Positions 37,240 through 52,766 of a stretch of 64,000 nucleotides of DNA are shown here, in pieces. The notes under the pieces are model-generated. The model did no database searches and was not told the DNA's origin. It was given only the letters and a program-made list of their open reading frames with translations. Within the stretch, counting starts at the first letter, position 1, and the number at the start of each line of letters is the position of its first letter. The position numbers and the translations under genes were made by a program. Origin of the DNA: Nitrospira sp. (GTDB lineage: Bacteria; Nitrospirota; Nitrospiria; Nitrospirales; Nitrospiraceae); assembly GCA_005116965.1 (NCBI GenBank), contig SWDG01000025.1:16344-80343 (forward strand), given 5' to 3'.

Positions 37240-38130
37240 ATGTCTGGTCCGCCCGCGTCATCATCCGCTTCCTCTAGAATTTCTTGGTCTGCGCTTGCCC
37301 GATTAATCCGGCTGCCAAACCAGACTGGTACCTATCTCTTACTCCTGCCTACGCTATGGAGCCTCGTGCTGGCCACCCGAGGGATTCCTCCCCCTCACCT
37401 CTTAGTTATTTTCATCGGCGGATCGTTCCTCATGAGAAGCGCTGGCGTCATAATGAACGATTTAGCGGATGAAACATTTGACAAGCAAGTCGCACGGACC
37501 AAGACGCGTCCATTGGCTTCTGGCGAATTGTCACGCCGCCATGCGCTGATCCTACTCAGCCTGCTGCTTGTCGTGGCGGCAAGCCTTCTGTTCTTCCTTC
37601 TGCCGATCGTAACCTGGCTCGCCCCGGTCGCGGTCTTTCTTGCCGCCCTCTACCCATACTCCAAACGATGGATCCACATCCCACAAGCCATGCTTGGCAT
37701 TGCGTTCGGCTGGGGAACGATCATGGCCTGGGCTGCAGTGCGAGGACAATTGGAGAGCTCAGCGTGGTGTCTCTTTGGAGCAACCGCCGCCTGGGCCATA
37801 GCCTATGACACGATCTACGCGATCCAAGACCAGGAGGATGATCGACGCGTTGGGGTCAAGTCCGCCGCCCTGTACTTTGGGGCTTTGGTTCACCAAGGCG
37901 TGGGATTGGCGTTCAGTATCATGCTGGCGTGCTTGATCGCCGCAGGGTGGTTTGCTCAGCTCAGGTGGCCATATTATGCAGCGCTATTGGGCGTGTCGGT
38001 ATTTTTCATACTACAGGTCATGCGCCTGCGGAGGCCGATGACACCGACTCACGCGTTCGCCATGTTTCGCGCACACGTTTGGGCAGGCGCTGCCATCCTT
38101 CTCGGATTACTCGTCGGGTTAGTGGGTTAG
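37240..38130 (+). CDS. UbiA-family polyprenyltransferase
   Basis: Attaches a polyprenyl chain to an aromatic quinone precursor in the membrane. Both Asp-rich motifs that bind Mg-diphosphate are present: NDLADETFD near residue 75 and DTIYAIQDQEDD near residue 190. Eight to nine hydrophobic helices follow the UbiA pattern, and the opening LIRLPNQTGTYLLLLPTLWSL is characteristic. In a menaquinone organism the role would be MqnP/MenA-like rather than true UbiA. It ends four bases into the convergent cytochrome gene. Confidence 0.88.
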   Translation: MSGPPASSSASSRISWSALARLIRLPNQTGTYLLLLPTLWSLVLATRGIPPPHLLVIFIGGSFLMRSAGVIMNDLADETFDKQVARTKTRPLASGELSRRHALILLSLLLVVAASLLFFLLPIVTWLAPVAVFLAALYPYSKRWIHIPQAMLGIAFGWGTIMAWAAVRGQLESSAWCLFGATAAWAIAYDTIYAIQDQEDDRRVGVKSAALYFGALVHQGVGLAFSIMLACLIAAGWFAQLRWPYYAALLGVSVFFILQVMRLRRPMTPTHAFAMFRAHVWAGAAILLGLLVGLVG

Positions 38131-39152
38131 GGCTTTTCGACCGGCTTCTCGGCTACAGGTTCAGACTTTGGCGCCCGTAAAGTGGCTACATACATCGTCA
38201 CAGCTTTAGCATCCGCATCATTCAAACCCAAGGCCGGCATTCGCGTGTGCGCATCCATCGCCTGTGGATTCTTGAGCCAACGATACACCCACGTGGCATT
38301 CAAGCGAAATCCAGCTCGATCCAACGCGGGACCGATCTTACCACCTTCACCGCCGACATTGTGGCACCCGTTGCAGCCATACTTATTTTCATAGAGTTGT
38401 TTGCCACGATCGACCAATTTTGCAACGTCTGCAGGCTTAGCCGTTAGATCGGGCCTAGGAATACTGAGTCCCTTTCCCGCTCTCGTAGAGAAATTGTTGA
38501 GGGCGACCTGGGTCACATCCATCTCTTTCTTGGCTTGCCCCATCGCTGCCTGTTCAGCCGCATAGGCCGATTCATCCACATCGACATCTTTCTTCAACTG
38601 CTCGCTCTTCCGCTCCGCTTCGTCGCTGGCTTTCTTCTCGGCGGCTTCGTAGGCCTGCTTGGCCTGTTCAAACTTGGCCTGTGCAGTCTTCAGTCCCTCT
38701 TCCAAGGAGGTCTTGCGTGCCGCGACGTTAAACTCCATCTTCGCCCCATGCAACGTGCGCACATATCCAACGATTGACCAGAGTTCATCCTCAGAGAGCG
38801 TATATTTAAAGGTCGGCATTGTGGGCACGGCAAAGTCGTCGTCTCCGATCGTATCTCCACCTTCCTCACTGGTGTCCAGCATGTCCCGCGAGATGGTCGC
38901 AAAGAGTTCCTCATCCTTGAACGTGCTCATTTCTGACTTATTAGACAAATCCTTGGGCTTTGGATCGGGCATAGCCGACCAATTAAACCCTTCGTTTTGC
39001 TTCCCGCTCTCGCCGTGACAATCGCTGCAATAGTGGGTATAGAGTTCATGGCCACGCTTTTCCTGTTCGTTGGCGCAGCCACCGGTGATGAAAGCCATGC
39101 CTCCGATCACTCCCACTGCCAATCCTATGATACCCAGCCTTGGCGCCTTCAT
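38127..39152 (-). CDS. dihaem cytochrome c lipoprotein
   Basis: Two haem c sites: CSDCH near residue 40 and CNGCH near residue 255. The signal sequence ends GGC as a lipobox, so it is anchored at the periplasmic face. Between the two cytochrome domains is a Lys/Glu/Ala-rich coiled coil (about 150-215). ATG 39152 was chosen two bases after the upstream stop; a GTG at 39158 would overlap that stop. It is the last gene of the respiratory cluster and probably passes electrons to or from it. Confidence 0.88.
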   Translation of the reverse strand: MKAPRLGIIGLAVGVIGGMAFITGGCANEQEKRGHELYTHYCSDCHGESGKQNEGFNWSAMPDPKPKDLSNKSEMSTFKDEELFATISRDMLDTSEEGGDTIGDDDFAVPTMPTFKYTLSEDELWSIVGYVRTLHGAKMEFNVAARKTSLEEGLKTAQAKFEQAKQAYEAAEKKASDEAERKSEQLKKDVDVDESAYAAEQAAMGQAKKEMDVTQVALNNFSTRAGKGLSIPRPDLTAKPADVAKLVDRGKQLYENKYGCNGCHNVGGEGGKIGPALDRAGFRLNATWVYRWLKNPQAMDAHTRMPALGLNDADAKAVTMYVATLRAPKSEPVAEKPVEKP

Positions 39153-39154
39153 GC

Positions 39155-39982
39155 TCACTGCCCTTTCTTGAGTTTTCGGATCAGGACAAACTGAAATCCC
39201 AAGCCCAATGCAGCAGCGATCGCCGCGTACATATAGCCGGAATAATCAGGCGGGGCATCGGCTCGGAAATACCACCAAGACGAGACCGCTTTTTGAGACC
39301 CCTTTTCAACCAACTCGCCGACGGCATCTTTTCGTCCGTCCCATACTGCAAAGGAGATACTCATGAATTGTCCAGCCGTAATTTGCACATCCTCATCAGC
39401 ATGCCCGGTCAACAATTTCCTTGAAAATACGACTTTCCATGTCCCGTTTGAATAGACGCCCTTGGCTGTCACATCCTGATGTTCTTGTGGCTTTAATGTC
39501 CCAAAACCTTTCGCACTCATGTCGATGGCCTTGCCGGTCTTATTTTTCCAGAACCAAATATTGACCGGCCCGCCTTCTACCTGGAGCATTGGCTGGCCAT
39601 GGGCGAAATGTGCCTTCTTATCACCCACCATAAACTCCAGTGCTGCTGCGTCATCGGGATCCTGAGTAGGATCGGCATATTCCACCAGCACCGCCACTTG
39701 TGTACCGTCATGCAAGGCACGCACGCTTACATCCTTCACAGTCACTTCCTGAATACGATTCTGCCAATGGACTTGCGGTGACATTGGAAACGTCGCAGGC
39801 GGCGCACTGCTCCAGACTGCCGCGCTTGGATCATCTACGGGTACGGCCCCAGTCAGAAGCGTCGCTCGAACCGAGACACTCTCTTGTGCATAGCCAAGCG
39901 ATGCTCCACCAATAATCATGGCTGCGATTGCTGCCGTTCCATCCCGCAAAACCCGTTTCATGATGCGATTCGCCGGTTTCAT
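39155..39982 (-). CDS. membrane-anchored haem b protein (ethylbenzene dehydrogenase gamma-type)
   Basis: Signal peptide (RDGTAAIAAMIIGGASLGYA), then an EB_dh beta-sandwich as found in the gamma subunits of DMSO-reductase-type enzymes. Recognisable blocks are VSVRALHDGTQVAVLVEYADPTQD, VNIWFWKN, WKVVFSRKLLTG and SISFAVWDGRKDAVGE. A C-terminal transmembrane helix (GYMYAAIAAALGLGFQFVLI) anchors it. It binds one haem b in relatives. No catalytic molybdenum subunit is encoded nearby. It sits between cytochrome c genes in the same operon. Confidence 0.85.
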   Translation of the reverse strand: MKPANRIMKRVLRDGTAAIAAMIIGGASLGYAQESVSVRATLLTGAVPVDDPSAAVWSSAPPATFPMSPQVHWQNRIQEVTVKDVSVRALHDGTQVAVLVEYADPTQDPDDAAALEFMVGDKKAHFAHGQPMLQVEGGPVNIWFWKNKTGKAIDMSAKGFGTLKPQEHQDVTAKGVYSNGTWKVVFSRKLLTGHADEDVQITAGQFMSISFAVWDGRKDAVGELVEKGSQKAVSSWWYFRADAPPDYSGYMYAAIAAALGLGFQFVLIRKLKKGQ

Positions 39983-40034
39983 GCTGTCCTCGTGCTCCCT
40001 CCACAACTAGATCGATCCACGCTGTTCTTTCCTG

Positions 40035-40751
40035 CTACTCCCAGGTTCGTGGGGATTGATGCGCACCGTCGTACTCACCTAAGATAATCTTCCAAATCCA
40101 TTCATCGGGCAACTCGACTTCCCAACGAGGCATAGCGGACTTCCATGGTGCACCTTCAATCGGAAGACCGACGCCGCCCTTTTTGATGCGCCAGAATAGA
40201 TAGCTTTCTTGCAACATGGCAATCGTCGTGGGGTCGGCAAAATTGGCAGGGGCCGGAATGAATCCACGAGCCGCCGGCCCCTTCCCGTCAAAGTTTCCAC
40301 CATGACAGGGTGAGCAATAGGCGGCATAAAAGCCCTTCCCCTGCATAATATTGTCAGGAGTCTTAGGAACGGGATTTGACAGGCCTGTATATTCGCCTGG
40401 CGGTGCTGGATGAATCGTTCGGCTTTCCGTTGGAGGGAGGTCGCTCACTGCCGTACTTCCGTATGTTTGCCAGCCCACCAGCAACGGAAACAGAATGAAC
40501 ACCCCATAGCGAAGTGCTTGCAGACCGCCGATGTTCTCTCCGGTCAGAAATCGTTGAATCGGATTCCAGAAGGCATCCTTCGATTCACCGCTCACTGTTT
40601 CAAACATGAAAATGCCGCCTGCAGTCAGCAAGAGATACAGAAATATGAGGCTGGAGGGAAGGGGGGCAGAGCCAGGTATGTTAGGCAACCCAAACTTCAG
40701 AAAGGCATACATGGCGACCATGAGAATGATTGGCTTCCCTAACGCTCCCAT
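40035..40751 (-). CDS. membrane-bound monohaem cytochrome c (3 helices)
   Basis: Three N-terminal transmembrane helices (about 7-23, 32-52, 78-95) precede a periplasmic cytochrome c domain with CSPCH near residue 149 and an axial Met candidate in SAMPRWEVELP. At 238 aa it resembles the membrane cytochromes of alternative complex III or cbb3-type chains in layout only. An ATG behind GGAGGAAGG follows the neighbouring cytochrome by 15 bases, so the pair is surely co-transcribed. Confidence 0.88.
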   Translation of the reverse strand: MGALGKPIILMVAMYAFLKFGLPNIPGSAPLPSSLIFLYLLLTAGGIFMFETVSGESKDAFWNPIQRFLTGENIGGLQALRYGVFILFPLLVGWQTYGSTAVSDLPPTESRTIHPAPPGEYTGLSNPVPKTPDNIMQGKGFYAAYCSPCHGGNFDGKGPAARGFIPAPANFADPTTIAMLQESYLFWRIKKGGVGLPIEGAPWKSAMPRWEVELPDEWIWKIILGEYDGAHQSPRTWE

Positions 40752-40766
40752 AACAATCCTTCCTCC

Positions 40767-41390
40767 CTAATTCGTGTGTGCGTCGGCAACAAGCGCAGCT
40801 TGCGCGGCCTTCACCGGCGCAGACGGGGCCTTCCCAGGGATATCGAGCTCCGACGTGCTGACAGAGATCGGCTCCCCGCTCATTTGCTGCAGAAACGCGA
40901 TAATGGCCAATATTTCATTCTTCGAAAGTCCGATCGGATCCTTATTGATAGCTGGCATCGTGGCTGGATAGTCCTTCGGCACGCCACCATGGCGGTAATC
41001 CTTATACACGAACGCCTGGGGATCCGTTAGGCTTTCAAAGAGGAAATCCTTGCTCAACTTAGCGCCGATTCCCTTCAAATCCGGACAACGGGCGGATTCA
41101 CTTGGCCCGATGGAATGACACAGTGCACATTGGCCTTTGCTGAAGAAGACCGTCTGGCCGATGGCAGCAATATCAGTCGGTGTCTTGATATTGGCAATAT
41201 CGATCTTTTCCTCGGCAGGAGGCAGAGAGGCCAGCTGGGGTACGGCAAGCGACATCAGTGCAAACAACCCCAGCACGATGGCAACGAATCCCGTCACCCT
41301 CACAAACACGGCCTTGATGAACAAGAGGATCAGAATGCCGATCCCAATGATGGACAGTGCGATTAATTGTAGTTGTGCGACTTCACTCAT
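40767..41390 (-). CDS. membrane-bound monohaem cytochrome c (2 helices)
   Basis: Two transmembrane helices at the N-terminus (about 7-25 and 33-51) are followed by a cytochrome c domain with CALCH near residue 91 and an axial Met candidate in YPATMPAINKD. GAGGG lies just before the ATG. At 207 aa, it forms a pair with the next cytochrome gene and follows bd-like subunit B by about 80 bases of repeat-like sequence. Confidence 0.88.
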   Translation of the reverse strand: MSEVAQLQLIALSIIGIGILILLFIKAVFVRVTGFVAIVLGLFALMSLAVPQLASLPPAEEKIDIANIKTPTDIAAIGQTVFFSKGQCALCHSIGPSESARCPDLKGIGAKLSKDFLFESLTDPQAFVYKDYRHGGVPKDYPATMPAINKDPIGLSKNEILAIIAFLQQMSGEPISVSTSELDIPGKAPSAPVKAAQAALVADAHTN

Positions 41391-41469
41391 GGGCCCTCGA
41401 ATGTTAAGTGCTGAGTTCTTAGTTTTTCGTTCTGGACTTAAAACTCACAATCAAAAATCAAAATTATCT

Positions 41470-43302
41470 CTATCTCTGTGACCGCTCTTCTGGAGCCCCT
41501 CCGGCCATCGCAGGAATGCCGTGCGGCAGCTCTCCCTTCCCCTGTCCTGGAGCCGTTTTGTACTTATCGCCCATAGTCGCGACCCAAAAGATAAACGCCA
41601 CGATAAGGCAGAAGGAAAACGTACAGAAGGCCATAATAAACGACGCGCTGCCCAACGCCGGCGAATAGGCATAGGGCGAGGTATCGCGCATGACTCCGTA
41701 CACATGCCAGTGGACACGGGACGAGGACCGCGCATAGCCCATCAAGGTCATGAGGAGAATGACCATGATGGCATTGAGAACCAAGGAATACCCAGCGCGT
41801 GGCGGCATGCCCCCCCACACCATCTCTGTCGTTGTTTTTGCGCTCTTGAGCAACAGCGCCGTCAACGGCGTGATCGTCAGAATCACAAAGATGACGATCA
41901 GCACTTGAGACGTAGAGAAATAATTGATGCGGACAATCGCCGGCACGAAATACCCCCAGACGCCGAGGACGATGACCGCAAGGCTGGCCAACACCAACAC
42001 GGCACCCATGACCGCTTTCGCTAGCTTCGCCCACCCGGCTGTATCCTGTTTCCCTGCCCGCCAATACATCACGAAGCTCATGAAGGTAATAAGAATCATG
42101 AGGTTCGACACCGTCATTTTTGCCGACATGACTCCCAAGACTCCAAGTAATGGGTGGTGGGCTCCTCCCATTTTCTGGGCCTCTTCAATGCTGGCCACAA
42201 GGGAGTGCGGGGTCATCCACACGGCAAGACACAGCAACAGACTGACTAACATCATCAACATGGCTCGGCGATATTTACCCTCTGACCCGGGAATTCGATA
42301 GGTAATCCCCAGCCAAAAATAATAGTTCGAGCCGAGGAACAGGACACCGATCAACATGGCCTGGAGAATGAAGAGCCAGGACAGAAATCCTCCCATCAGG
42401 GTAATGCCCATCTGCTGGTTGTACTGGTAGATTTCCCGCATGAGCCAATAGCCGGCAAACGGGAGGGCCAGCAGACCGAACACACCGATAAAGTTGCCGA
42501 CATACCCCATCCAATCGTAATGTTCTCGCTCTTCAGGACTCTTCACCGATAAATACCGGACACCGGCATAGGCCCCGCAGATATAACCTCCAAGGACGAC
42601 GTTCGCGATAAGGCGATGGATGTTGATCGGCCACCAGGTTGGATTCCACGTTGCCGCCCAGGCCCTCTCAAAGGCGGTCCCGTCTGCAAGCACAACCGGG
42701 CTGGACTGGAACGTAGCCCAGGCATTGGGGATAATCATAATGAATAAGGCAAAGAAGTTCAGGAGAAACCCGAGAAACACATGCAAGGTCTTCTTCCTGC
42801 CATCCTGCATGGCATCCCACCCATACCAATACAGATACAGCGTCGCCGTTTCTAATAAGAACAGGAGGCAATAGAGCAAGAAGGAGGGGAAAAAGACGTC
42901 TGTCAAATAATTCATCAGTTTGGGGTAGAACGCCACCAATAGAAACAACAGAATGCCACCAAACAACGCGGTGGTCGAATAGGCGGAAGTCAGGAGCTTG
43001 GTAAACTCCTTGGCGAGCTTGTCATAACGCTTCTCGCCTCCCCTCCAGGCAATGACTTCGCACAGCCAGGCAAACATTGGCACACCTAAAACGAACCCGG
43101 CCAATAAGAGATGCAACTGGGCAACGATCCAAACAAGATTCCGACTGCCGACGTAAGGAATATCGCGATACTCTGTAGGACCCGCAGTTGTTCCCTCGGC
43201 TGCAATCCCGACTGAAGGAAGGGCTAGCCATCCCGCCATCAACAAGAGACCTGCGAGCCATTCGCCGTGACTCCCGACGGCCCGGAGAGCTCGTTGAACC
43301 AT
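41470..43302 (-). CDS. cytochrome bd-like oxidase membrane subunit B
   Basis: A 610-residue polytopic protein with about 14 transmembrane helices, related distantly to CydA. His64 in QLHLLLAGF and His229 in NIHRLIANVVLGGY are candidate haem ligands, and the block ETATLYLYWYGWD is shared with its paralogue downstream. ATG 43302 behind AAGGGG opens a signal-like helix. No CydB is present. Nitrospira genomes are known to use such bd-like proteins as candidate terminal oxidases. The function here is inferred from that and from the bc cluster. Confidence 0.82.
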   Translation of the reverse strand: MVQRALRAVGSHGEWLAGLLLMAGWLALPSVGIAAEGTTAGPTEYRDIPYVGSRNLVWIVAQLHLLLAGFVLGVPMFAWLCEVIAWRGGEKRYDKLAKEFTKLLTSAYSTTALFGGILLFLLVAFYPKLMNYLTDVFFPSFLLYCLLFLLETATLYLYWYGWDAMQDGRKKTLHVFLGFLLNFFALFIMIIPNAWATFQSSPVVLADGTAFERAWAATWNPTWWPINIHRLIANVVLGGYICGAYAGVRYLSVKSPEEREHYDWMGYVGNFIGVFGLLALPFAGYWLMREIYQYNQQMGITLMGGFLSWLFILQAMLIGVLFLGSNYYFWLGITYRIPGSEGKYRRAMLMMLVSLLLCLAVWMTPHSLVASIEEAQKMGGAHHPLLGVLGVMSAKMTVSNLMILITFMSFVMYWRAGKQDTAGWAKLAKAVMGAVLVLASLAVIVLGVWGYFVPAIVRINYFSTSQVLIVIFVILTITPLTALLLKSAKTTTEMVWGGMPPRAGYSLVLNAIMVILLMTLMGYARSSSRVHWHVYGVMRDTSPYAYSPALGSASFIMAFCTFSFCLIVAFIFWVATMGDKYKTAPGQGKGELPHGIPAMAGGAPEERSQR

Positions 43303-43345
43303 ACTAACCCCTTGCTGTATGACCCTCACCTCATCACCTCGTAAG

Positions 43346-44350
43346 TTACGGTTTCGTCTTGGCAGAGGAGTCCTTAGCCTTTTCACTTTCGGTCTTCCCC
43401 TTGCCCTTTTCTTTTTGATCTATTGTGGCGACCTTTTGCTGCTCCATCGCCCCAATTTGTGCCGCAAGCGTCGCAATACGCTGAGTACTGCTGTTCAACG
43501 ACTCGACCGGCTTGAAGACCGGCTCGACCCGTATGTCAGGCTTTTTACAGCATTCATGCGGATGGGGAGTCGTCACAGGAAGTATCGACCAAAACATCAG
43601 CGAGAACACGACGCCCACACCAGCCAACGACGTCAACATCAGCCCTTGATCGGTCGGCACCCGCATTAAATCCCAACGGGTAATGAGCCCTTGATAATTT
43701 TCAGACACCGGACGGGCAATTTCCGCCATGCGTCGAATGCTCTGCCCAAGAATGGAAATCCCGATGACCGACAAAACGATCAAGACTGCGGACGAAATAG
43801 ATCCCCAAATCGTGAGCTCAAGACCGATTCGTTCCGCAATAGGAAGACCTGTATCGAAAAGGTGTCTCATGCTTTCCATTTCGGCCATCGAGTGCGACGC
43901 AGCGATGGAAATTTCCGTAACCCGGCTGACAATACACCAGAGGAGCGGAAAAAAGAAAGTCCCAATGAGCGCTGCCCTCCACCAAATCGCAAAGCCAAGA
44001 CCATCATAGGGTGGCTCTTTCCGAAGTCGTTCCAAGAAGAACGTTCTCCCAACCAGTCCCAGCGCCCAAATGTCGACCGGAATCGACATCCCAAAAATAA
44101 TCGGCAGACCAATCCCTTCACCAAACTGCCCCTCAAACATGGCAATGATGATGGGAACGGCGAAGACGGTCATGGGACTGGCAAATAATATCAAGAAGGC
44201 AAGACCGAACCTTCCTTCAAAATGCGCCAAACCCATCGTCATGGCAAGCACCGCAAACACCGCCTTAATCGGAATCCCAGTCCAACAGGCAGACCAAAGG
44301 ATGCTGAACCCGATCTTCGTCGGAGACATCGATTCGCGATCTTCAGCCAT
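43346..44350 (-). CDS. multi-helix membrane protein of the respiratory cluster, unknown
   Basis: About six to seven transmembrane helices, a periplasmic or cytosolic Cys-Cys pair (HECCKKPD) and a Lys/Glu-rich C-terminal coil (about 300-334). No haem motif. It lies between cytochrome b and bd-like subunit B in an uninterrupted operon, so it is probably a structural subunit or assembly factor of that complex. I recognise no family. Confidence 0.7.
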   Translation of the reverse strand: MAEDRESMSPTKIGFSILWSACWTGIPIKAVFAVLAMTMGLAHFEGRFGLAFLILFASPMTVFAVPIIIAMFEGQFGEGIGLPIIFGMSIPVDIWALGLVGRTFFLERLRKEPPYDGLGFAIWWRAALIGTFFFPLLWCIVSRVTEISIAASHSMAEMESMRHLFDTGLPIAERIGLELTIWGSISSAVLIVLSVIGISILGQSIRRMAEIARPVSENYQGLITRWDLMRVPTDQGLMLTSLAGVGVVFSLMFWSILPVTTPHPHECCKKPDIRVEPVFKPVESLNSSTQRIATLAAQIGAMEQQKVATIDQKEKGKGKTESEKAKDSSAKTKP

Positions 44351-44368
44351 GGCTAATCTATCCTAGGA

Positions 44369-45496
44369 CTAATCCAAAAACTCTCGGTTAATCACCGATG
44401 CAACCGTGAACAAGAGAATGAAAACCATGATCGCAATCCAGCTGATGAGGGCAATCGGTCGCTTGAAAATATTCCGCTCGGGATCCTTGTCGATGAACGG
44501 GAGCGCGACAAGCAATACCATGAAGGCAACCGGCAACGCCACCGCCCCCATAAATTGACCGAACTCACCCGCGAACAATTTCAACCGGAGCAGCTGGAAG
44601 TAAAACAGAAAGTACCATTCAGGTTCAGGATGATAGTCCCCTGGGTCTGGCGCAGCCTCGTCTAATAGGACGACCGGTTCCCAAAGAGCCAAGGCGCAGA
44701 TACTGACGAAGACGAACGCCATCCCGACCATGTCTTTCCAAATCTGACGGGGAAAGAAGTAGTCGGTCTTCGCCTTGAGCTCTTCCACTGTACCGGTAAA
44801 GGGTCCAGCGGGAGCGGCCACGCGAAACAGAAAGAGATGGAGTCCGGCGAGGGCCATAAGTGCAGCAGGGAGAACCATCACGTGCAGGACGAAGAATCGG
44901 CTCAATGTCATCTGCCCAGGAGTGGGGCCCCCTTTCAGAAATCGAGCAATAAAATCGCCGATAACGGGGGTCTTATCCAAAATTTCGACACCAACCGTCG
45001 TCGCCCAGAACGCCCGCTGGTCCCAAGGCAAGAGATAGCCTGTAAATCCGAAGGTGATCACCACACCGAATAGGGCCAGCCCGACGATCCAGAGTAACTC
45101 TCGAGGCTTTTTATACGCGCCCCAGAGAAATACCTGCGACATGTGGGCGATCACACAGACCACCATCGCACTGGACCCCCAAAAATGGTAGCCCAGGAGG
45201 AACCAGCCATAATCAACGTCGTGAATAATATATTGCGTACTGGCCCAGGCGTGGTCTGCCGTCGGCACATAATAGAACATCAGCAACGTGCCCGTCAGCG
45301 CCTGCATCGCAAAGATGAACAACAGGATAGAGCCGAACACATAGGCCCAACGAGACCCACCAGGAAGCGGCTCATTGAGCATCTTGGCCTGCATTTCCTT
45401 GAGGCCAACACGTTCGTCTAGGAAAGCGACAAGCCTTTCGATCGCGCTGGGCTGATGATCGGAAATCGTTGCAGGGGATGAATGCTTACTATCCAT
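44369..45496 (-). CDS. cytochrome b of a bc/b6f-type quinol oxidase
   Basis: Full-length cytochrome b in one chain (375 aa from ATG 45496; a TTG at 45511 overlaps the Rieske stop). The four haem-binding histidines are His104, His118, His205 and His220. The second pair is separated by 14 residues, as in b6f, the first by 13. The Qo-site motif PEWY occurs at 292-295. The helix pattern covers both the N-terminal haem part and the C-terminal subunit IV-like part. It oxidises quinol and feeds the Rieske protein encoded upstream. Confidence 0.95.
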   Translation of the reverse strand: MDSKHSSPATISDHQPSAIERLVAFLDERVGLKEMQAKMLNEPLPGGSRWAYVFGSILLFIFAMQALTGTLLMFYYVPTADHAWASTQYIIHDVDYGWFLLGYHFWGSSAMVVCVIAHMSQVFLWGAYKKPRELLWIVGLALFGVVITFGFTGYLLPWDQRAFWATTVGVEILDKTPVIGDFIARFLKGGPTPGQMTLSRFFVLHVMVLPAALMALAGLHLFLFRVAAPAGPFTGTVEELKAKTDYFFPRQIWKDMVGMAFVFVSICALALWEPVVLLDEAAPDPGDYHPEPEWYFLFYFQLLRLKLFAGEFGQFMGAVALPVAFMVLLVALPFIDKDPERNIFKRPIALISWIAIMVFILLFTVASVINREFLD

Positions 45497-45507
45497 ATCG
45501 GCAGCTT

Positions 45508-46443
45508 TCAAATGATCCGAATTTGCGACTTCGTACCGGCCTTGAACTCCATATCGATGACCTCAACCTCTCCCCCTGCAGAAACCCTCACAGGCAATGC
45601 GTCAAGAGCGCGCGGGGCCGGGCCATCGAGCACTTTTCCCGCAGCATCATAAATACTGAGATGGCACGGACAGAGAAAGACTTGTCCAAGCGTTTTATGC
45701 TGTCGCCACTTGAACGCACACCCTAAATGCGGGCACTTGCCGGAGAACGCGAGGTAGGGAACATCTTTCTTGTTGGTCCAGATGGTCTTTCCTTTGGCAT
45801 CACGGAATTCGGCGTCCTTGCCTTGATAGACTTTCCCTAGAAGCTCTGGAGTGGCCTGTAACACCCAGACATTTTTATCGACTTCAGCCTCTGGCATGTA
45901 GGCTTCTTTGACCTTTTTCTTGTACTTAAACTGCACACCAACATCTTCTTGCTTGATCTTGCTGACATTCCCCACTTTCAGCCATTCATTGTCGAAATCG
46001 GCATACATCGGCTTCATGAGAAAGCGGAGAATCGGATAGGCAATGGGAAGACCGATCAAAAACCCAATGACATTGGTAAAATTCATGAAAAACGTGCGGC
46101 GTTTAACACTTTTCTCCAGATCCGGCAGAGGAACCAACACCTCACCCGGGGTCACATGGATATGGTCTTCGAGATGTGAGATCTCCACTTCATGCGTGGT
46201 GACATAGTCATCTCGTTTAAAGGGAGGTAACGCCAAGATCTCCGTTGACGGCGTACGCAACTGCACTAGATCGTCCGTCACAACCTGGACCTGGCCCATG
46301 GCAACTTGTCGCTCACCGCTCCCATTCACCGATACCACGATGTGGCTGATTTCATGGGAAAGGGGATCAAGCACGACTTTCGTGACTTCACCGATGTCGA
46401 GGTCGGTGCACCGGACCTTGGATTTCAGCTTCGGTTGCAGCAT
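45508..46443 (-). CDS. PRC-barrel / Rieske 2Fe-2S fusion protein
   Basis: A two-domain protein. Residues 1-95 read as a PRC-barrel (KVRCTDLDIGEVTKVVLDPLSHEISHIVV). A membrane helix follows at about 120-142 (FTNVIGFLIGLPIAYPI), then the Rieske domain. Cluster ligands are Cys237, His239, Cys258 and His261, with disulfide Cys242-Cys260 (CPHLGC, CPCHLS; the second motif has Leu where Gly is usual). Its ATG overlaps the upstream cytochrome stop by one base and its stop overlaps the next start. The N-terminal PRC domain is unusual for Rieske subunits. Confidence 0.92.
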   Translation of the reverse strand: MLQPKLKSKVRCTDLDIGEVTKVVLDPLSHEISHIVVSVNGSGERQVAMGQVQVVTDDLVQLRTPSTEILALPPFKRDDYVTTHEVEISHLEDHIHVTPGEVLVPLPDLEKSVKRRTFFMNFTNVIGFLIGLPIAYPILRFLMKPMYADFDNEWLKVGNVSKIKQEDVGVQFKYKKKVKEAYMPEAEVDKNVWVLQATPELLGKVYQGKDAEFRDAKGKTIWTNKKDVPYLAFSGKCPHLGCAFKWRQHKTLGQVFLCPCHLSIYDAAGKVLDGPAPRALDALPVRVSAGGEVEVIDMEFKAGTKSQIRII

Positions 46444-47243
46444 TAGTTTTTCTTGATCGGCTTGGGGGTATTCACCGAGGCATTCTTGAACGTCCCTAGC
46501 CAGGCAGCAAGAGCCTGCATTTCTTTGGGGTCCATCAGATCTTTAAACTTGTTGGGCATGATGCCCTTCTGCCATTCCTTCTCATACCCCTCGGCCATAA
46601 AACTCTTGGGGTTCCCAATTTTCTCTTGAATCTCATCGACCGTTAACAACGTGCCGATATTATCCAATTCAGGGCCTCGCTTCTTTCCACCCTCACCCCG
46701 AAGCTTATGACAGTTGTAACATTCTTGCAGTTGCCACTGCTCCTCGCCCACCTTCATGAAATCACCTGCGCTCGCACTGGCTGCGGCAGGGGGTTTCTCC
46801 CCAGCCGGAGGCGTCGACGCGGCCTGACCTCCGCCAATCCCCTTCAGCCGATCCTCAAGCGCTTTGACTTGTGCATCGAGAGCCTTCACCCGAGCAATCA
46901 GTTCATCCGCCTTCCCCTGTGCTGAGTGCTTTCGCTCCTTCTCAAGAAGTTTGTTGATTTTTGCCTTTTCGTCTTCTGGATTAAACTGCGGTAACAACGA
47001 GGGCCCAACTACATAAACGGTAATCAGGAGGACCCAAAACACCACGACGGAAATAAGGGACTTCCCACCACTCATGGCTCCGATCGGCTGCGCGTCAAGC
47101 AGCATGAAGATGATCGCCCCGATCAGTGCGATGACCAAGAACAGCACTTGAAAGTCAGCCGGCACTGCCTGCGATCGCGCGATACCAACCAACACTCCAC
47201 CGACCGCCAATCCAATACCTAGTTTTTTGAATATATTCCCCAT
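46443..47243 (-). CDS. membrane-bound cytochrome c with coiled coil
   Basis: Two or three transmembrane helices (about 8-25, 32-50, 65-82), a coiled coil (about 92-138, EKAKINKLLEKERK...ARVKALDAQVKALEDRL), a Pro/Ala linker and a C-terminal cytochrome c domain with CYNCH near residue 176. The axial Met is in GIMPNKFKD. At 266 aa, it lies directly before the Rieske gene (1-base overlap), so it is the c-type subunit of the bc module. Confidence 0.9.
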   Translation of the reverse strand: MGNIFKKLGIGLAVGGVLVGIARSQAVPADFQVLFLVIALIGAIIFMLLDAQPIGAMSGGKSLISVVVFWVLLITVYVVGPSLLPQFNPEDEKAKINKLLEKERKHSAQGKADELIARVKALDAQVKALEDRLKGIGGGQAASTPPAGEKPPAAASASAGDFMKVGEEQWQLQECYNCHKLRGEGGKKRGPELDNIGTLLTVDEIQEKIGNPKSFMAEGYEKEWQKGIMPNKFKDLMDPKEMQALAAWLGTFKNASVNTPKPIKKN

Positions 47244-47282
47244 GCGAATTCCCGTTGCCTCAGTAAGTGTCTTACACTGTGA

Positions 47283-48995
47283 TTACTTGGCTGCGACGGG
47301 GACTGGACTCCCCTCAGGCTCTCGGGCCCTCGAAACAGAAGGCCGAAGAGCGACCAGCACAGCGAGACTGACGATGGCAATAAAGAAAACGGTGATCGCT
47401 GTAATCCAGCCAGCCGAATAGGAGAGCGTCGGCGTAAATGACTCCGCCGACAAGTCCGACACCAAGCTATAGGCATGGAAATACTTCTTCAGCAACGACC
47501 GCACGGCTCCCATCAAGCCCATGATCCACGTTGAGGTAAACGCCAAGAAAATCAGAACGAACTGCGAGACAAAATCGATTTTCCCCCAGAGGATCGTGCC
47601 TTGCTTGATTGTTCGGTTATACAGGACGAAGTTGACAACCGTCACGAATACCAGCGTCAAAATTGCAGACAGCTTTGCTGGCATCGACGACAAAAAATCC
47701 CACCCTTCAGGCAGTTTCAGCTCATCGGGCATATCGGTTCCCGTCGCCACAAATCCGGCAGGAGTCAGCCACACCGCGTCGCTCGCGAGCATGACGATAA
47801 AGCCGATCTTGATGACAGTCCGCGCAGAGACAGTCATTGGAATGAACCGACCGAACAGAAATGGCGACAGTGCAAGAGGCAGCAGGAACGCCAACGACAT
47901 TGGATCGGGAATCCAATATTTATTCATCACCCACATGGTGACGGGAAGGAGAGCGACGAGAACGATCGGAGCCAGAATGGTCATCCGCACATTTTGGGCT
48001 CCTTCGATTCGTTTGACACTGAGCCAACTGTAATAGTTGATTCCCAAGAACAGAAGCCCGATCATCACTCCCTGCATTTCAAAAAACATGGACAGCTGGT
48101 CGGCCATCATGTACGGGCAAAATGAAAAATCGTAATCGCACATTTCGTAGGCCAGCAAGAGCCCTGTGAACGGCTGCAACAGCGAGCCACCCACTGCAAT
48201 CCAGATGGCAGCAAAACCCATCCAATCATAGTAGGCTCTCTCCTCCTGCGTCTTCGCCGCCATGTACATATAGGCAGCGATCATCCCGGCAATGAACCCA
48301 CCGAACGCTACATTCCCATCGATTCGGTGAAGACTCAGAGGAAACCAACTTTGGTTCGCAATCTTATCCCACAAGGTAGCCGCGGCGATAAAATCCTGGG
48401 GCGAAACCCCCTCGGCTTTCGGCGGGGTATTCATGAACGATGTGGGACCGTTGATCACGAACAAGATCAGCAAACACACGAGATTCAAGACCACGCCCAG
48501 CGCGATATGACGCCCCTTCTTTTCACCTTTCCACACATCCCACGTATAGAGATAGGCATACATGAGGATGGTCTCGGCGATAAACAACGCCGGATATAAA
48601 ATTGCAAACACTACATAAAATTGATTGATGAACGATGTGGTGAACTGCGGATAGGCCGCAAGGAGGACGAAAACAAAGAAGCCGCCGGTCACCGCCGTCA
48701 TACTGAAGAGAATGACCGTGACCTTGGTGATCTCTTTAGCCAAGCGGTCATACCGTGGGTCCTGCTTACGATATCCCAACCATTCCGAAATGACGACAAA
48801 GATTGGCGCACCGAGGATGAACGCGGCGAACAAGATATGGAGCTGAGCGACGATCCATACAGCCGTTCGATTACCGGTGTACGGAAACTCCACCGAAGAC
48901 GCCCCAACTTCCTGAGCGTAGACATTGGTGACAGCTGCCACACACAGCGAGAACAACACCATGAGAGCCAGGAGACCGCTCGACAGTTTTTTCAC
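47283..48995 (-). CDS. cytochrome bd-like oxidase membrane subunit A
   Basis: A 570-residue membrane protein, paralogue of subunit B in the same operon. It shares VWIVAQLHILFAAFILG (His53), ETILMYAYLYTWD and SLHRIDGNVAFGG (His223). The GTG start is preceded by GAGG and opens a signal-like helix ending TNVYAQ. About 14 helices are predicted. No CydB partner is present. It leads the main operon and is followed by the cytochrome c and Rieske genes. Confidence 0.82.
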   Translation of the reverse strand: MKKLSSGLLALMVLFSLCVAAVTNVYAQEVGASSVEFPYTGNRTAVWIVAQLHILFAAFILGAPIFVVISEWLGYRKQDPRYDRLAKEITKVTVILFSMTAVTGGFFVFVLLAAYPQFTTSFINQFYVVFAILYPALFIAETILMYAYLYTWDVWKGEKKGRHIALGVVLNLVCLLILFVINGPTSFMNTPPKAEGVSPQDFIAAATLWDKIANQSWFPLSLHRIDGNVAFGGFIAGMIAAYMYMAAKTQEERAYYDWMGFAAIWIAVGGSLLQPFTGLLLAYEMCDYDFSFCPYMMADQLSMFFEMQGVMIGLLFLGINYYSWLSVKRIEGAQNVRMTILAPIVLVALLPVTMWVMNKYWIPDPMSLAFLLPLALSPFLFGRFIPMTVSARTVIKIGFIVMLASDAVWLTPAGFVATGTDMPDELKLPEGWDFLSSMPAKLSAILTLVFVTVVNFVLYNRTIKQGTILWGKIDFVSQFVLIFLAFTSTWIMGLMGAVRSLLKKYFHAYSLVSDLSAESFTPTLSYSAGWITAITVFFIAIVSLAVLVALRPSVSRAREPEGSPVPVAAK

Positions 48996-49375
48996 GATGC
49001 CTCGCCCCCTACTTTAAGAACATACTCAAGAATATTAGCCCCACTCTTACTATACATAAATATACCCAGCGAGAGCTTCACGTAACAACCTGAGCTTCAG
49101 TGACTATATCGACAAGATACCTAGCACTCTTCAGATGCGACCAAGTACCCTATAGAACATTGAAGGCCAGGCCCCACACAAATTGTCAACAGATATGAAC
49201 TTACTGGCCAACCGAGCATCGCAAATTTCCTAGCCGTTATCTAGGAAATTCCTGAACAATGCACGAAAAACCAGAAGCCCGATTCATCGGCTTAGATGCG
49301 CGATCAAGAAATAGACTTCCGAATGCCGACGACGTGAATACATTCCATCAGCAGCAACCCCTGCGATCCTAGTAC
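48996..49375. promoter_or_regulatory. leader region of the respiratory operon with palindrome
   Basis: About 380 bases upstream of bd-like subunit A. A perfect 10-bp inverted repeat, AATTTCCTAG (49224-49233) and CTAGGAAATT (49241-49250), with a 7-base spacer, could be an operator or the terminator of the preceding cytochrome gene. An AT-rich stretch at 49040-49065 (TATACATAAATATA) may be the promoter. Confidence 0.45.
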
Positions 49376-49864
49376 TCACTTCGCACCAACCTCACTCCAC
49401 TGCTTCTTCTCTTCATTCCAGATCTTTCCGGACAGTGCAAAATTCCGTTCATACAGCACGAGCTTCCATCGGTCCTCTTCGGAAAGCTTGCTCTTCCAAC
49501 CTCGCATCTTGGTATTCGACACCCCCTCTGAAATACGCCAGAACCACACGGAATCTGAATAAAGCTTCATGCGCTCAGGGTTTCTAAAATCCGTGGCACC
49601 CGCCTTTACCGGTTTCCCGTCTTTCCCATGGCAACTGGCACAGTTCACATCGGGATTTTTCTCACCTATGTACAACTTCCTTCCCTCCTCAAGCTTCTGA
49701 GAATCCCCCCACCAATCTGCCGGCATACGCTTATCAGCATATTCAGCAGGAGCTGGAGGTGGCGGCACAATCGGCCCTTCTCCGCCTTGCTCTCCACCAC
49801 AACTCGATAATAGTCCGAGACCGATAACCAACAGAACATGAATCAATCTTATCCTGATATTCAT
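49376..49864 (-). CDS. cytochrome c lipoprotein (monohaem)
   Basis: Signal sequence ending LLSSC, a lipobox, then a Pro-rich linker and a cytochrome c domain with CASCH near residue 76 and Met candidates in NTKMRGWKSKLSE. At 162 aa. It precedes the main operon by about 380 bases and is on the same strand, so it may be the soluble-domain electron carrier of the complex or a separately regulated partner. Confidence 0.88.
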   Translation of the reverse strand: MNIRIRLIHVLLVIGLGLLSSCGGEQGGEGPIVPPPPAPAEYADKRMPADWWGDSQKLEEGRKLYIGEKNPDVNCASCHGKDGKPVKAGATDFRNPERMKLYSDSVWFWRISEGVSNTKMRGWKSKLSEEDRWKLVLYERNFALSGKIWNEEKKQWSEVGAK

Positions 49865-50077: not shown

Positions 50078-50650
50078 TTATGATTTTCTCTTTCCCTGCG
50101 ACTTCACCCTGCCTCGTTCTCGCTTCCGCTGAGAACGGACCAGCTTCATCCCGATAACACCTCCAGCTACTGCAACCACCGCCCCGCCGCCCCACCAAAT
50201 CCATACAGGAGGCCCACTCACCTCACAACCAGTTCCAAAATTAACGCGGATTTTGCGGTCACTTTCTAAGTCTTTTTGGTCGAATTCAACCTTAAGGTGT
50301 TGCTGCTCCCCTCTCGCCTCTACCAAAAGGGGATCACCAAAATTGTCATTGTGCAGATGAAACATCGCTTTATAGTAGCCATCTCCATCCGTCCGCACAA
50401 CCTGACCGTATGAAATCTTGGTGTCCTTGACAAGAACGTCTGCACTCGACATCCCCTTCCCATCAGGTCCGCATACATACCCCTCGACCATGAAACGATG
50501 GTCCGCTTCATGCGTGGCTAGAGCCACCTGTGAAAACATTACGCTCATTACGAGACAGCAACTCAGGACGGACAGTGCCGCTAAAATTCGACTAGCAAGC
50601 TTCGAACTTGACCGCTGACTCGTCGCTCGCTCTTTTGAAGAAATACTCAC
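50078..50650 (-). CDS. secreted beta-sandwich protein with C-terminal membrane anchor
   Basis: GTG start and a signal sequence (about 20-45). The mature part is a carboxypeptidase-regulatory/Cna-B-like beta domain (FMVEGYVCGPDGKGMSSADVLVKD ... TDGDGYYKAMFHLH), typical of surface or periplasmic proteins. A C-terminal membrane helix (PPVWIWWGGGAVVAVAGGVIGM) with a Lys/Arg-rich tail anchors it. No enzymatic motif. It lies between the respiratory and hopanoid regions. Confidence 0.68.
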   Translation of the reverse strand: MSISSKERATSQRSSSKLASRILAALSVLSCCLVMSVMFSQVALATHEADHRFMVEGYVCGPDGKGMSSADVLVKDTKISYGQVVRTDGDGYYKAMFHLHNDNFGDPLLVEARGEQQHLKVEFDQKDLESDRKIRVNFGTGCEVSGPPVWIWWGGGAVVAVAGGVIGMKLVRSQRKRERGRVKSQGKRKS

Positions 50651-50797
50651 TCGCTATATAACAAGCACACTAGGATTCGGGCAGGCGTTTCTAACACAGC
50701 ACTCCACCTTTGTCAACGAAAAGGGTGGTGATTTCGCTGACACACAAAGGTTTTTCGCAATTTTTATTTTTCAGAATTAGCGGAGTTCGCAGGAGCT

Positions 50798-51190
50798 TCA
50801 GAGATAGCCCTTCGTACGCGTGACCGCCTCAATTTTCGCGGACTCAGTTCGCCGCTCGGACTCTTTTTTTGACACCCAAGTCTCCCATGATTTTCCGTTT
50901 GCCGTGTCTTCCCCGGTGAAGGCAATCGTGGCGATACCAGAGTACGGAATGCGCTGAGCATCGGGACGGTCTGAGGAAAATAACTCTAGATACGAATCAG
51001 TCGCACCGACATGTCGATTATAGATATATCCGGTGACCGATTCGCCAGAACGGAGCGTTAATGTCACATCACCACGATAGTCGAACGCGAGTTCGACAGC
51101 TTCTGTTATTTCCGCAGTAGATCTCGGCGTAAAAAGACGCCCTTCGAGAGAATCGGTCATACTCGCGATATGATTTTTTGTGTCAGTCAT
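50798..51190 (-). CDS. uncharacterised 130-aa protein next to hpnH
   Basis: A soluble protein with a helix (STAEITEAVELAF) followed by a small beta barrel (GDVTLTLRSGESVTGYIYNRH, then PDAQRIPYSGIATIAFTG), a fold like Sm or PRC-type barrels. The tail is Lys/Glu-rich. It follows hpnH by about 130 bases on the same strand; a link to hopanoid metabolism is inferred from position only. Confidence 0.6.
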   Translation of the reverse strand: MTDTKNHIASMTDSLEGRLFTPRSTAEITEAVELAFDYRGDVTLTLRSGESVTGYIYNRHVGATDSYLELFSSDRPDAQRIPYSGIATIAFTGEDTANGKSWETWVSKKESERRTESAKIEAVTRTKGYL

Positions 51191-51319
51191 GGTGAGGTTC
51201 TCGTTCGTGACGTCTATTTTGTGAAGCGCTGTCCACCCTGATGAATTAGGGATAACGCTCGCTCGCCTCGCGGCGAAGCCGAGGGCCTCGCTGAGTCGAA
51301 GCGGGCTTCACAAGCACTG

Positions 51320-52336
51320 CTATCGCGAGGTAGGCGATAATGTCAGCTTGGCCGTCCGAACAAATCCAGAAGCCGTACTAAATGTATCTTCGACTGCGGA
51401 GGCCTCATAGCCACAATGAACCATACAATCGGCGCACTTTTCATTTCGACCAGTTCCGTACTTCTCCCACTCCGTCAACTCCATCAACTCCCGGAAGGTC
51501 GTGGTATACCCCTCTTGGAGTAAATAGCAGGGCTTCTGCCATCCAAACACATTATACGTTGGATTCCCCCAGGGTGTACATTCGTACTGACGGCGCCCCA
51601 TAAGAAAATCTAAAAACAGCGGCGATTGGTTGAACTGCCAACCTGGCTTGGGGCGAGCAAGGATCTTTGAGAAAAGCTCTTGAGTCCGTTCCCGCTTCAA
51701 AAAGTGTTGCTGATCTGGAGCTTTTTGATAACTATACCCTGGAGAGATAGTCATCCCCTCGACGCCGAGGGCCATCATTTCATCAAAAAATGTTCTGACC
51801 CGCTCTGGATTCGCATCGTCAAATAAGGTGGTGTTGGTCGTCACACGATGACCACGCTTGAGCGCCGCCTTGATCGCCTTGACTGCCACCTCATACACCC
51901 CATCGCGACAGACAGCCAAATCATGCTCATCCTTGAGCCCATCCATGTGGATACTGAAGGTCAAGTATTTCGAAGGCTGATATTCGTCCAGCTTCCGCTC
52001 CAAGAGGATGGCGTTCGTGCAGAGATAAATATACTTCTTCCGATCTACCAAGCCCTGTACGATCGTTGCGATTTCAGGATGAATGAGTGGTTCACCCCCA
52101 GGAATACTCACCATGGGCGCTCCGCATTCCTCCGCCGCCGCCCAGCATTGTTCAGGGGTTAACCGCTTGTCGAGGACATGATCAGGATACTGAATCTTCC
52201 CACAACCTGCGCAGGCTAGGTTACACCGAAAGAGCGGTTCAAGCATCAGCACCAAGGGATATCGCTTCACTCCCTTTAACTTCTGGGAGAGCACATACGT
52301 CGCCACTGTATACATTTGGGAAATCGGAACAGCCAT
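51320..52336 (-). CDS. hpnH: adenosyl-hopene transferase HpnH (radical SAM)
   Basis: Adds 5'-deoxyadenosine to hopene (diploptene) as the first step of extended hopanoid synthesis. The radical SAM cluster motif is CNLACAGC near residue 38, with the family opening SQMYTVATYVLSQKLKGVKRYPLVLMLEPLFRC. The GGEP motif for SAM is SIPGGEPLIH, and C-terminal cysteines (CADCMVHCGYE) may hold a further site. ATG 52336 was chosen over the upstream start because GGAG lies six bases before it. At 338 aa it is standard length. Confidence 0.95.
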   Translation of the reverse strand: MAVPISQMYTVATYVLSQKLKGVKRYPLVLMLEPLFRCNLACAGCGKIQYPDHVLDKRLTPEQCWAAAEECGAPMVSIPGGEPLIHPEIATIVQGLVDRKKYIYLCTNAILLERKLDEYQPSKYLTFSIHMDGLKDEHDLAVCRDGVYEVAVKAIKAALKRGHRVTTNTTLFDDANPERVRTFFDEMMALGVEGMTISPGYSYQKAPDQQHFLKRERTQELFSKILARPKPGWQFNQSPLFLDFLMGRRQYECTPWGNPTYNVFGWQKPCYLLQEGYTTTFRELMELTEWEKYGTGRNEKCADCMVHCGYEASAVEDTFSTASGFVRTAKLTLSPTSR

Positions 52337-52766
52337 TCCGTTCTCCTTCACTCGCTCGCGTTGTTGTTCTTACAACCCTGTATATATGAGCAGCTACGAG
52401 TCGTAGCCGCACTTTGGAAGCACATCAATGGTCGCGATTGTAACATCTCACCGAAGACGCGTCAATTTCTAGGGCTTCCACGCATAACACAGTCGATGGG
52501 AACAATCCCATCACTCCACCTGCAGATCAGCTCCAAACGTAAGCGCGATCTTGGTGAATCTTTGGAAACTGTATCCCGTGACGAGGAGAAGGACCTTTGA
52601 TGTAATCTGGATCCTCGTGCCCACGCGTTGGAGAATGCCTCCATTTGCAGCTCCCCTTAACCAAGGATCTAAATGATACGCCAATGAGAACACCGGAGAC
52701 GCTTTCCCGCTAGCGACCATGACGAATAGAGCTATGAAGAGCCAGTAGGTCCGCAGAAGGTTGGTA
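52337..52766. other. intergenic region between hpnH and tRNA-Cys
   Basis: Only short overlapping frames. No gene is supported. Confidence 0.35.

Follow-up and report, generated by a model that had tools for sequence, protein, structure and literature searches.

The window analysed here is a stretch of 64,000 nucleotides from Nitrospira sp. (assembly GCA_005116965.1, contig SWDG01000025.1, positions 16,344 to 80,343), in which a respiratory gene cluster was found at positions 38127–49864. It consists of eleven minus-strand open reading frames (ORFs), all present in the ORF list at the coordinates that a sequence-only reading of the window had given. The gene content described by that reading was borne out by the ORFs and by Pfam (E values in brackets), except that the product of 43346–44350 matched no family. 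In the order of transcription, the genes encode a monohaem c-type cytochrome with a lipoprotein-like N-terminus (c1, 49376–49864; Cytochrome_CBB3, 4.8e-8), a CydA-like membrane subunit (bd-like_1, 47283–48995; Cyt_bd_oxida_I, 1.1e-23), a membrane-anchored monohaem cytochrome c (c2, 46443–47243; Cytochrom_C, 5e-10), a Rieske iron-sulfur protein (45508–46443; Rieske, 6e-9), a b6-like cytochrome b (44369–45511; Cytochrome_B, 6.6e-49), the unclassified membrane subunit, and bd-like_2, a NIDE0901/OR-N2-like candidate for the oxygen-reducing subunit (41470–43386; Cyt_bd_oxida_I, 4e-18). These are followed by two membrane cytochromes c (c3, 40767–41390, recognized by phmmer homology to the cytochrome domain of bd-like_2–cytochrome c fusions; c4, 40035–40751, Cytochrome_CBB3, 1.4e-7), an EB_dh/dimethyl sulfoxide-reductase type II haem b subunit with a C-terminal transmembrane (TM) segment (alt_nxrC_1, 39155–40006; EB_dh, 1.5e-23, and TIGR03477, 7e-31, under the cut-off of the latter model), and a dihaem c-type cytochrome as the last gene (c5, 38127–39158; Cytochrome_CBB3, 2.8e-17, and Cytochrom_C, 1.3e-16). 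Across the cluster, Pfam gave five c-type cytochromes with one haem motif each, and two in c5. No CydB gene was present.

The tight packing noted by the sequence-only reading was upheld in part. Neighbouring genes are separated by anything from overlaps of 1–4 bases to gaps of 79 bases, except for c1, which lies 380 bases from bd-like_1 and may therefore be outside the shared transcript; wherever a Nitrospirales locus was read with sufficient flank, the c1 orthologue occupied the same position. Some of the overlaps vary with the start codon chosen. An overlap of 41 bases precedes bd-like_2 if the first GTG is taken as its start, and the likely start of cytochrome b is an internal ATG at 45496, where relatives align, so that a short gap replaces the 4-bp overlap.

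The arrangement was compared in 99 Nitrospirales genomes, which belong to the genus, family or order of the window and include its own genome. Both bd-like_1 and bd-like_2 were found in 99/99. In 92 genomes they lay on one contig, 5551–5988 bp apart and flanking the bc genes; in the other seven they were on separate contigs, and these exceptions are contig breaks. Non-identical loci whose flanks were long enough numbered 40, and 32 of these had all eleven genes in identical order. The c3 gene was fused to bd-like_2 in two deviating loci (L055 and L059, the latter also without the unclassified membrane gene), c5 was missing from L091, and the five other non-standard loci formed a TO_2-like group. 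L091 also showed diverged bd-like_2 and downstream cytochromes, and a second bd-like module after the cluster. The eleven-gene arrangement is not due to chance, and the joint unit has become fixed in Nitrospirales as well as in a few relatives from the same class. In two families (f6 and f9) that are likely Manganitrophaceae, as their gene content and the account in PMC9040806 suggest, bd-like_2 was mostly accompanied by cytochromes c, EB_dh, Mrp-like subunits and distantly similar Rieske/cytochrome b proteins. In more distant Nitrospirota it was found on short contigs, mostly beside c3/c4-like genes.

Alignments of 21 cytochrome b and 22 Rieske orthologues showed that the four haem histidines of cytochrome b (His109/123 and His210/225), its PEWY motif, and the CPHLGC and CPCH ligand motifs of the Rieske protein were invariant, as in cytochrome b6f/bc1 complexes. 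The histidine spacing in helix D of cytochrome b was 15 residues, which is b6-like, and its best PDB matches were cytochrome b6 and a fused cytochrome b. Unlike in cytochrome b6f, however, this cytochrome b is a single unsplit chain, with Val at the haem c_n Cys35 position in the window protein, and the Rieske protein carries an additional PRC-barrel-like domain. It was reported that a Ser/Tyr pair raises the Rieske potential (PMC12954380); the Ser was present in 22/22 orthologues (CPCHxS in 22/22) and the Tyr in 20/22, a pair that would suit a high-potential chain. The c2 gene was always directly upstream of the Rieske gene, making its product a candidate cytochrome c partner of the Rieske/cytochrome b pair.

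The PRC-barrel-like domain forms the N-terminus of the Rieske protein (∼residues 1–80), ahead of a Tat-like motif near residue 115 (RRxF[FL] in 22/22 orthologues, RRxFF in the window protein), a TM anchor and the Rieske domain. The sequence-only reading had named the protein PRC-Rieske. The Rieske assignment stood, and 15/22 orthologues matched PRC (PF05239) at E<=1, with a best value of 7.3e-5; the match of the window protein itself (E 0.015) was under the Pfam cut-off. If the Rieske protein is Tat-exported, the PRC-barrel-like domain must remain cytoplasmic. A PDB sequence search with this domain gave no match, and a literature search found no paper combining PRC-barrel, Rieske and cytochrome b, which is a weak sign of novelty. 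The domain brings to mind the H subunit on the cytoplasmic side of photosynthetic reaction centres.

The AlphaFold2 model of bd-like_2 (predicted local distance difference test score, pLDDT, 78.6) matched CydA structures over nearly its full length with Z scores of 21.9–25.6. The best match was 7ose_A (Z 25.6, 351 residues, 3.5 Å), and ten cytochrome bd entries headed the ranking, followed by alternative complex III (Z 17.9). The CydA assignment of bd-like_1 came from Pfam only. In alignments of 38 bd-like_2 and 19 bd-like_1 sequences, the counterparts of E. coli His19 and His186 (His53/His223 in bd-like_1, His73/His238 in bd-like_2) were invariant in both proteins, and they also occurred in bd-like_3 and bd-like_4 of the genome. 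The pairing of His186 with His238 was set by motif and helix order, contrary to the raw alignment; the pairing with His270 produced by MAFFT was judged wrong, because His238 fits the motif, falls within TM5 of the model and does not vary between sequences. The Glu107 counterpart was kept in bd-like_2, so that fold, His19, His186 and Glu107 are shared with canonical CydAB. In contrast to CydAB, the bd-like proteins have no counterpart of the Q-loop region (Lys252/Glu257) and are longer chains without CydB in the cluster. His542 of bd-like_2 was invariant and common to all four bd-like types. A copper site unique to bd-like_2 was considered and rejected, since among the additional invariant histidines His375 and His392 are also found in bd-like_3/4 and only His391 sets bd-like_2 apart.

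Gene fusions in relatives bear on the electron donor. In 11 loci, one of them in the same genus, the C-terminus of bd-like_2 was a cytochrome c domain with homology to c3 (phmmer E 3e-61 to 2.5e-43); a quick tree placed ten of these fusions in one supported group and one apart. Two further loci (L062 and L072) had c-type domains fused to EB_dh and adjoining bd-like_2, the protein matching c4 in L072 consisting of three c-type domains plus EB_dh. Taken together with the missing quinol site, these fusions make cytochrome c the best-supported candidate donor of the bd-like proteins, and the same was proposed previously (PMC12324825, PMC10839748). The function of quinol oxidase that the sequence-only reading had given to the whole unit is thus probably wrong. 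Its description of the bd-like subunits as fused holds for the gene neighbourhood in the window; true gene fusions were seen only in relatives.

The unclassified membrane subunit matched no Pfam family, and in a Foldseek search of the PDB no hit of its model (pLDDT 73.8) reached an E value below 0.45. An alignment of 30 orthologues (A6) showed a conserved core of one TM segment and a tail. The protein has ∼334 residues in Nitrospirales and ∼120 residues, i.e. the one TM segment and tail, in class relatives (L053 and L054); among the loci read, the N-terminal TM domain occurred only in Nitrospirales. In L059, a 120-residue ORF (8612–8971) between cytochrome b and the bd-like_2–c fusion matched ATP synthase subunit c (E 7e-14) and occupies the place of the unclassified gene in Nitrospirales. 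The idea from this locus that the unclassified subunit is a relative of ATP synthase subunit c was rejected, because true orthologues lacked such a match.

The genome assembly (3.73 Mb, 99% complete) encodes four bd-like proteins, and the two outside the cluster (C6:745000–762000) fit the published arrangement of bd-like_3/4 with alt_nxrC_2. Canonical CydAB is encoded elsewhere: cydA (G000:C6:508444–509732, L081) appears in two frames and is followed by a CydB-like ORF, and a frameshift was rejected as the cause because a 100-N scaffold gap lies inside the gene. The sole PF00115 match was a weak haem-copper oxidase-like protein (E 6e-9, G000:C5:276091–277230, L080). The only PF00033 cytochrome b of the whole genome was that of the cluster. 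A candidate Rieske protein of a second complex III at C27:163289 was dismissed, as its frame runs on into a flavodoxin-like protein that has no membrane anchor. A gene for a molybdoenzyme resembling the alpha subunit of nitrite oxidoreductase (NXR) scored under the TIGR03479 cut-off, and its putative role as NXR is suggested by family and context. Next to the cluster, a convergent plus-strand gene at 37240–38130 encodes a UbiA-family prenyltransferase (UbiA, 1.8e-56), which lies outside the complex and keeps its position in nearly all Nitrospirales loci reaching that far. Upstream are CarboxypepD_reg-like, unknown and radical SAM genes (50078–52351), the last of which is HpnH-like (DUF3463 radical SAM family). 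The positions of the UbiA gene and of these upstream genes were conserved nearly as well as the cluster.

Hybrid loci with Mrp-like pump subunits were found in two lineages. In Nitrospira sp. RCA (L055 8992–14822, identical to L083, SPAW01000080.1), the standard cluster and its flanks are otherwise retained, with a diverged bd-like_2–c fusion in place of bd-like_2 and c3, followed by two Proton_antipo_M (Mrp/Nuo-like) proteins and a small ORF. GC content was 0.48–0.50 over most of the length of the pump genes versus 0.54–0.63 around them. In the class relative (L059 3338–17309), bd-like_1, Rieske, cytochrome b, the fused bd-like_2–c and two Mrp-like subunits form one operon-like run. The pump subunits of Nitrospira sp. 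RCA kept the TM5 Glu; Lys takes the place of NuoM Glu407 in them, and each lacked some other NuoM/NuoN residues. Both loci come from metagenome assemblies and could therefore be misassembled; the internal position of the hybrid locus in its contig and the gene order common to the two lineages speak against this. Mrp-bearing TO_2 complexes were stated to be restricted to Manganitrophaceae (PMC9040806). The window cluster resembles TO_2 in its bd-like protein with c-type cytochromes and EB_dh, but TO_2 has two MrpD-like subunits whereas the cluster has no Mrp-like pumps; the likely TO_2 loci read here had a bd-like_2–c fusion, no bd-like_1, and only distantly similar Rieske/cytochrome b. The PRC-barrel-like Rieske domain, the fusions of bd-like_2 or EB_dh with cytochrome c, and the hybrid loci were not found in the literature surveyed.

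The cluster as a whole is not a textbook complex III or bd oxidase, as the sequence-only reading rightly stated, and it was already described for Nitrospira. Mundinger et al. 2019 (PMC6606698) reported CIII_1, bd-like_1, bd-like_2, alt_nxrC_1 and several cytochromes c of N. moscoviensis in one strongly transcribed region and proposed a complex III–IV supercomplex linked to NXR. NIDE0901-like OR-N2 and OR-N1 CydA were assigned to an OR-N CydAA' oxidase (PMC12342949), and OR-N1/OR-N2 CydAA' oxygen reductases were also treated in PMC10839748; the present proteins are likewise CydA-like paired paralogues without a quinol site, NIDE0901-like, and bd-like_1 is probably the published OR-N1 partner. 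The identification with NIDE0901/bd-like_2 rests on the described gene order (PMC6606698). With both the N. moscoviensis cluster and the OR-N assignment published, the arrangement itself is known and is restated here. Its components match those described for N. moscoviensis, down to the pair of cytochromes c that separates bd-like_2 from alt_nxrC. Two complex III copies and an octahaem nitrite reductase-linked Rieske/cytochrome b pair were reported there, compared with the single PF00033 cytochrome b here; otherwise nothing substantial differs. The OR-N families were reportedly defined by Murali et al. 2021.

From these data, the cluster would encode a Nitrospira's principal high-potential respiratory module, and it is likely, in our judgement, that it encodes a cytochrome-c-oxidizing oxygen reductase of the bd family beside a reversible complex III. 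The complex III would comprise Rieske, b6-like cytochrome b and a cytochrome c, passing electrons from methyl-plastoquinol to cytochrome c in the forward mode and, driven by proton motive force, into quinone in the reverse mode. The oxygen reductase of the bd superfamily would contain bd-like_2 as the candidate catalytic subunit together with bd-like_1. Most electrons from nitrite would run from NXR along a wire of haem b and c (c4, the EB_dh protein and c5), reach the oxidase probably via c3, and end on O2; a minority would pass from c-type cytochromes through c2/Rieske and cytochrome b to quinone. The sequence-only reading had linked the bd-like proteins to the terminal oxidase of Nitrospira and had considered reverse electron flow to quinone. 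The first link is supported, and the second agrees with a model in which complex III runs in reverse and methyl-plastoquinone has a potential of +57 to +59 mV (PMC12324825). Gene content, strict synteny, conserved ligands and fold, the missing quinol site and the fusions in relatives are direct observations; subunit partnership, flow direction and oxygen reduction are inferred.

Several points weigh against this interpretation. Glu99 and Glu445 were lost from the bd-like proteins, hydrophobic residues aligning there (the alignment near Glu445 being uncertain), and the Met393 ligand position was variable, with Met325 in 20/38 bd-like_2 sequences; bd-like_1 had an invariant Met one position after the Met393 equivalent. 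As a consequence, these proteins cannot be assumed to carry the haem set of an oxygen reductase. Distant Nitrospirota have bd-like_2 without the Rieske/cytochrome b/bd-like_1 part, which implies that the oxidase half is independent of this complex III and more widespread than the joint unit. The literature search found no biochemistry on any cluster protein, and neither a conserved gene neighbourhood nor expression amounts to proof that the proteins associate physically. That complex III and the oxidase form one physical supercomplex is a reasonable published hypothesis (PMC6606698), plausible and unproven, whose chances we put just short of even. An extended version is clearly unlikely: one complex III–oxidase machine in which a cytoplasmic PRC-barrel-like domain would serve the inner quinone site, as the reaction-centre H subunit does, and in which the two pump subunits of the same operon would, in the case of Nitrospira sp. 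RCA and of a single class relative, make an ion-pumping or ion-driven oxidase/reverse-flow machine.

The electron routes proposed above would equally fit separate, co-regulated complexes, namely complex III with c2, an oxidase of bd-like_2, c3, c4, EB_dh and c5, and bd-like_1 in another role. This possibility, which contradicts a supercomplex, has somewhat less than even chances. The oxidase half alone in distant Nitrospirota and the 380-bp gap before bd-like_1 favour it; the order and spacing kept across Nitrospirales, where the bc genes always lie between the two bd-like genes, argue against it. Somewhat unlikely is a quinol oxidase supercomplex like the actinobacterial III–IV, in which quinol would deliver electrons through cytochrome b/Rieske and the bd-like subunits to O2 within one complex, working in the forward direction on H2, formate or storage compounds. 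It would use the same module and genes, a working forward route requires both halves, and the single cytochrome b of the genome and the strict co-conservation are consistent with it. Electrons from nitrite (+430 mV), however, enter the quinone pool only with an input of energy (PMC12324825), so this route cannot be the main flow on nitrite, and lineages that lack this complex III still have bd-like_2, fused there to cytochrome c. Quite improbable is that the bd-like subunits do not reduce O2 and are quinone- or proton-handling partners aiding reverse flow from nitrite to quinone through complex III, as suggested for related Nitrospina/anammox proteins: the lost residues, relatives in anaerobic anammox bacteria (PMC3578206), the lower-scoring likeness to alternative complex III membrane subunits and the Mrp-like subunits that certain relatives have added to the module point that way, but both core haem histidines are strictly conserved, a haem-copper oxidase is missing from most Nitrospirales while their nitrite respiration requires a cytochrome c oxidase (PMC10579370), this genome offers only the weak haem-copper-like protein and canonical CydAB, and the N. 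moscoviensis counterparts of CydAB were weakly expressed on nitrite (PMC6606698).

Nitrospira dominate nitrite oxidation, and neither their electron route to oxygen nor the uphill share for CO2 fixation has been demonstrated biochemically. The strict eleven-gene unit, the bd-like_2–cytochrome c fusion and the pump-bearing replacement cassette lead to testable predictions on the donor, the partner subunits and the energy coupling, and such comparative details sharpen the tests.

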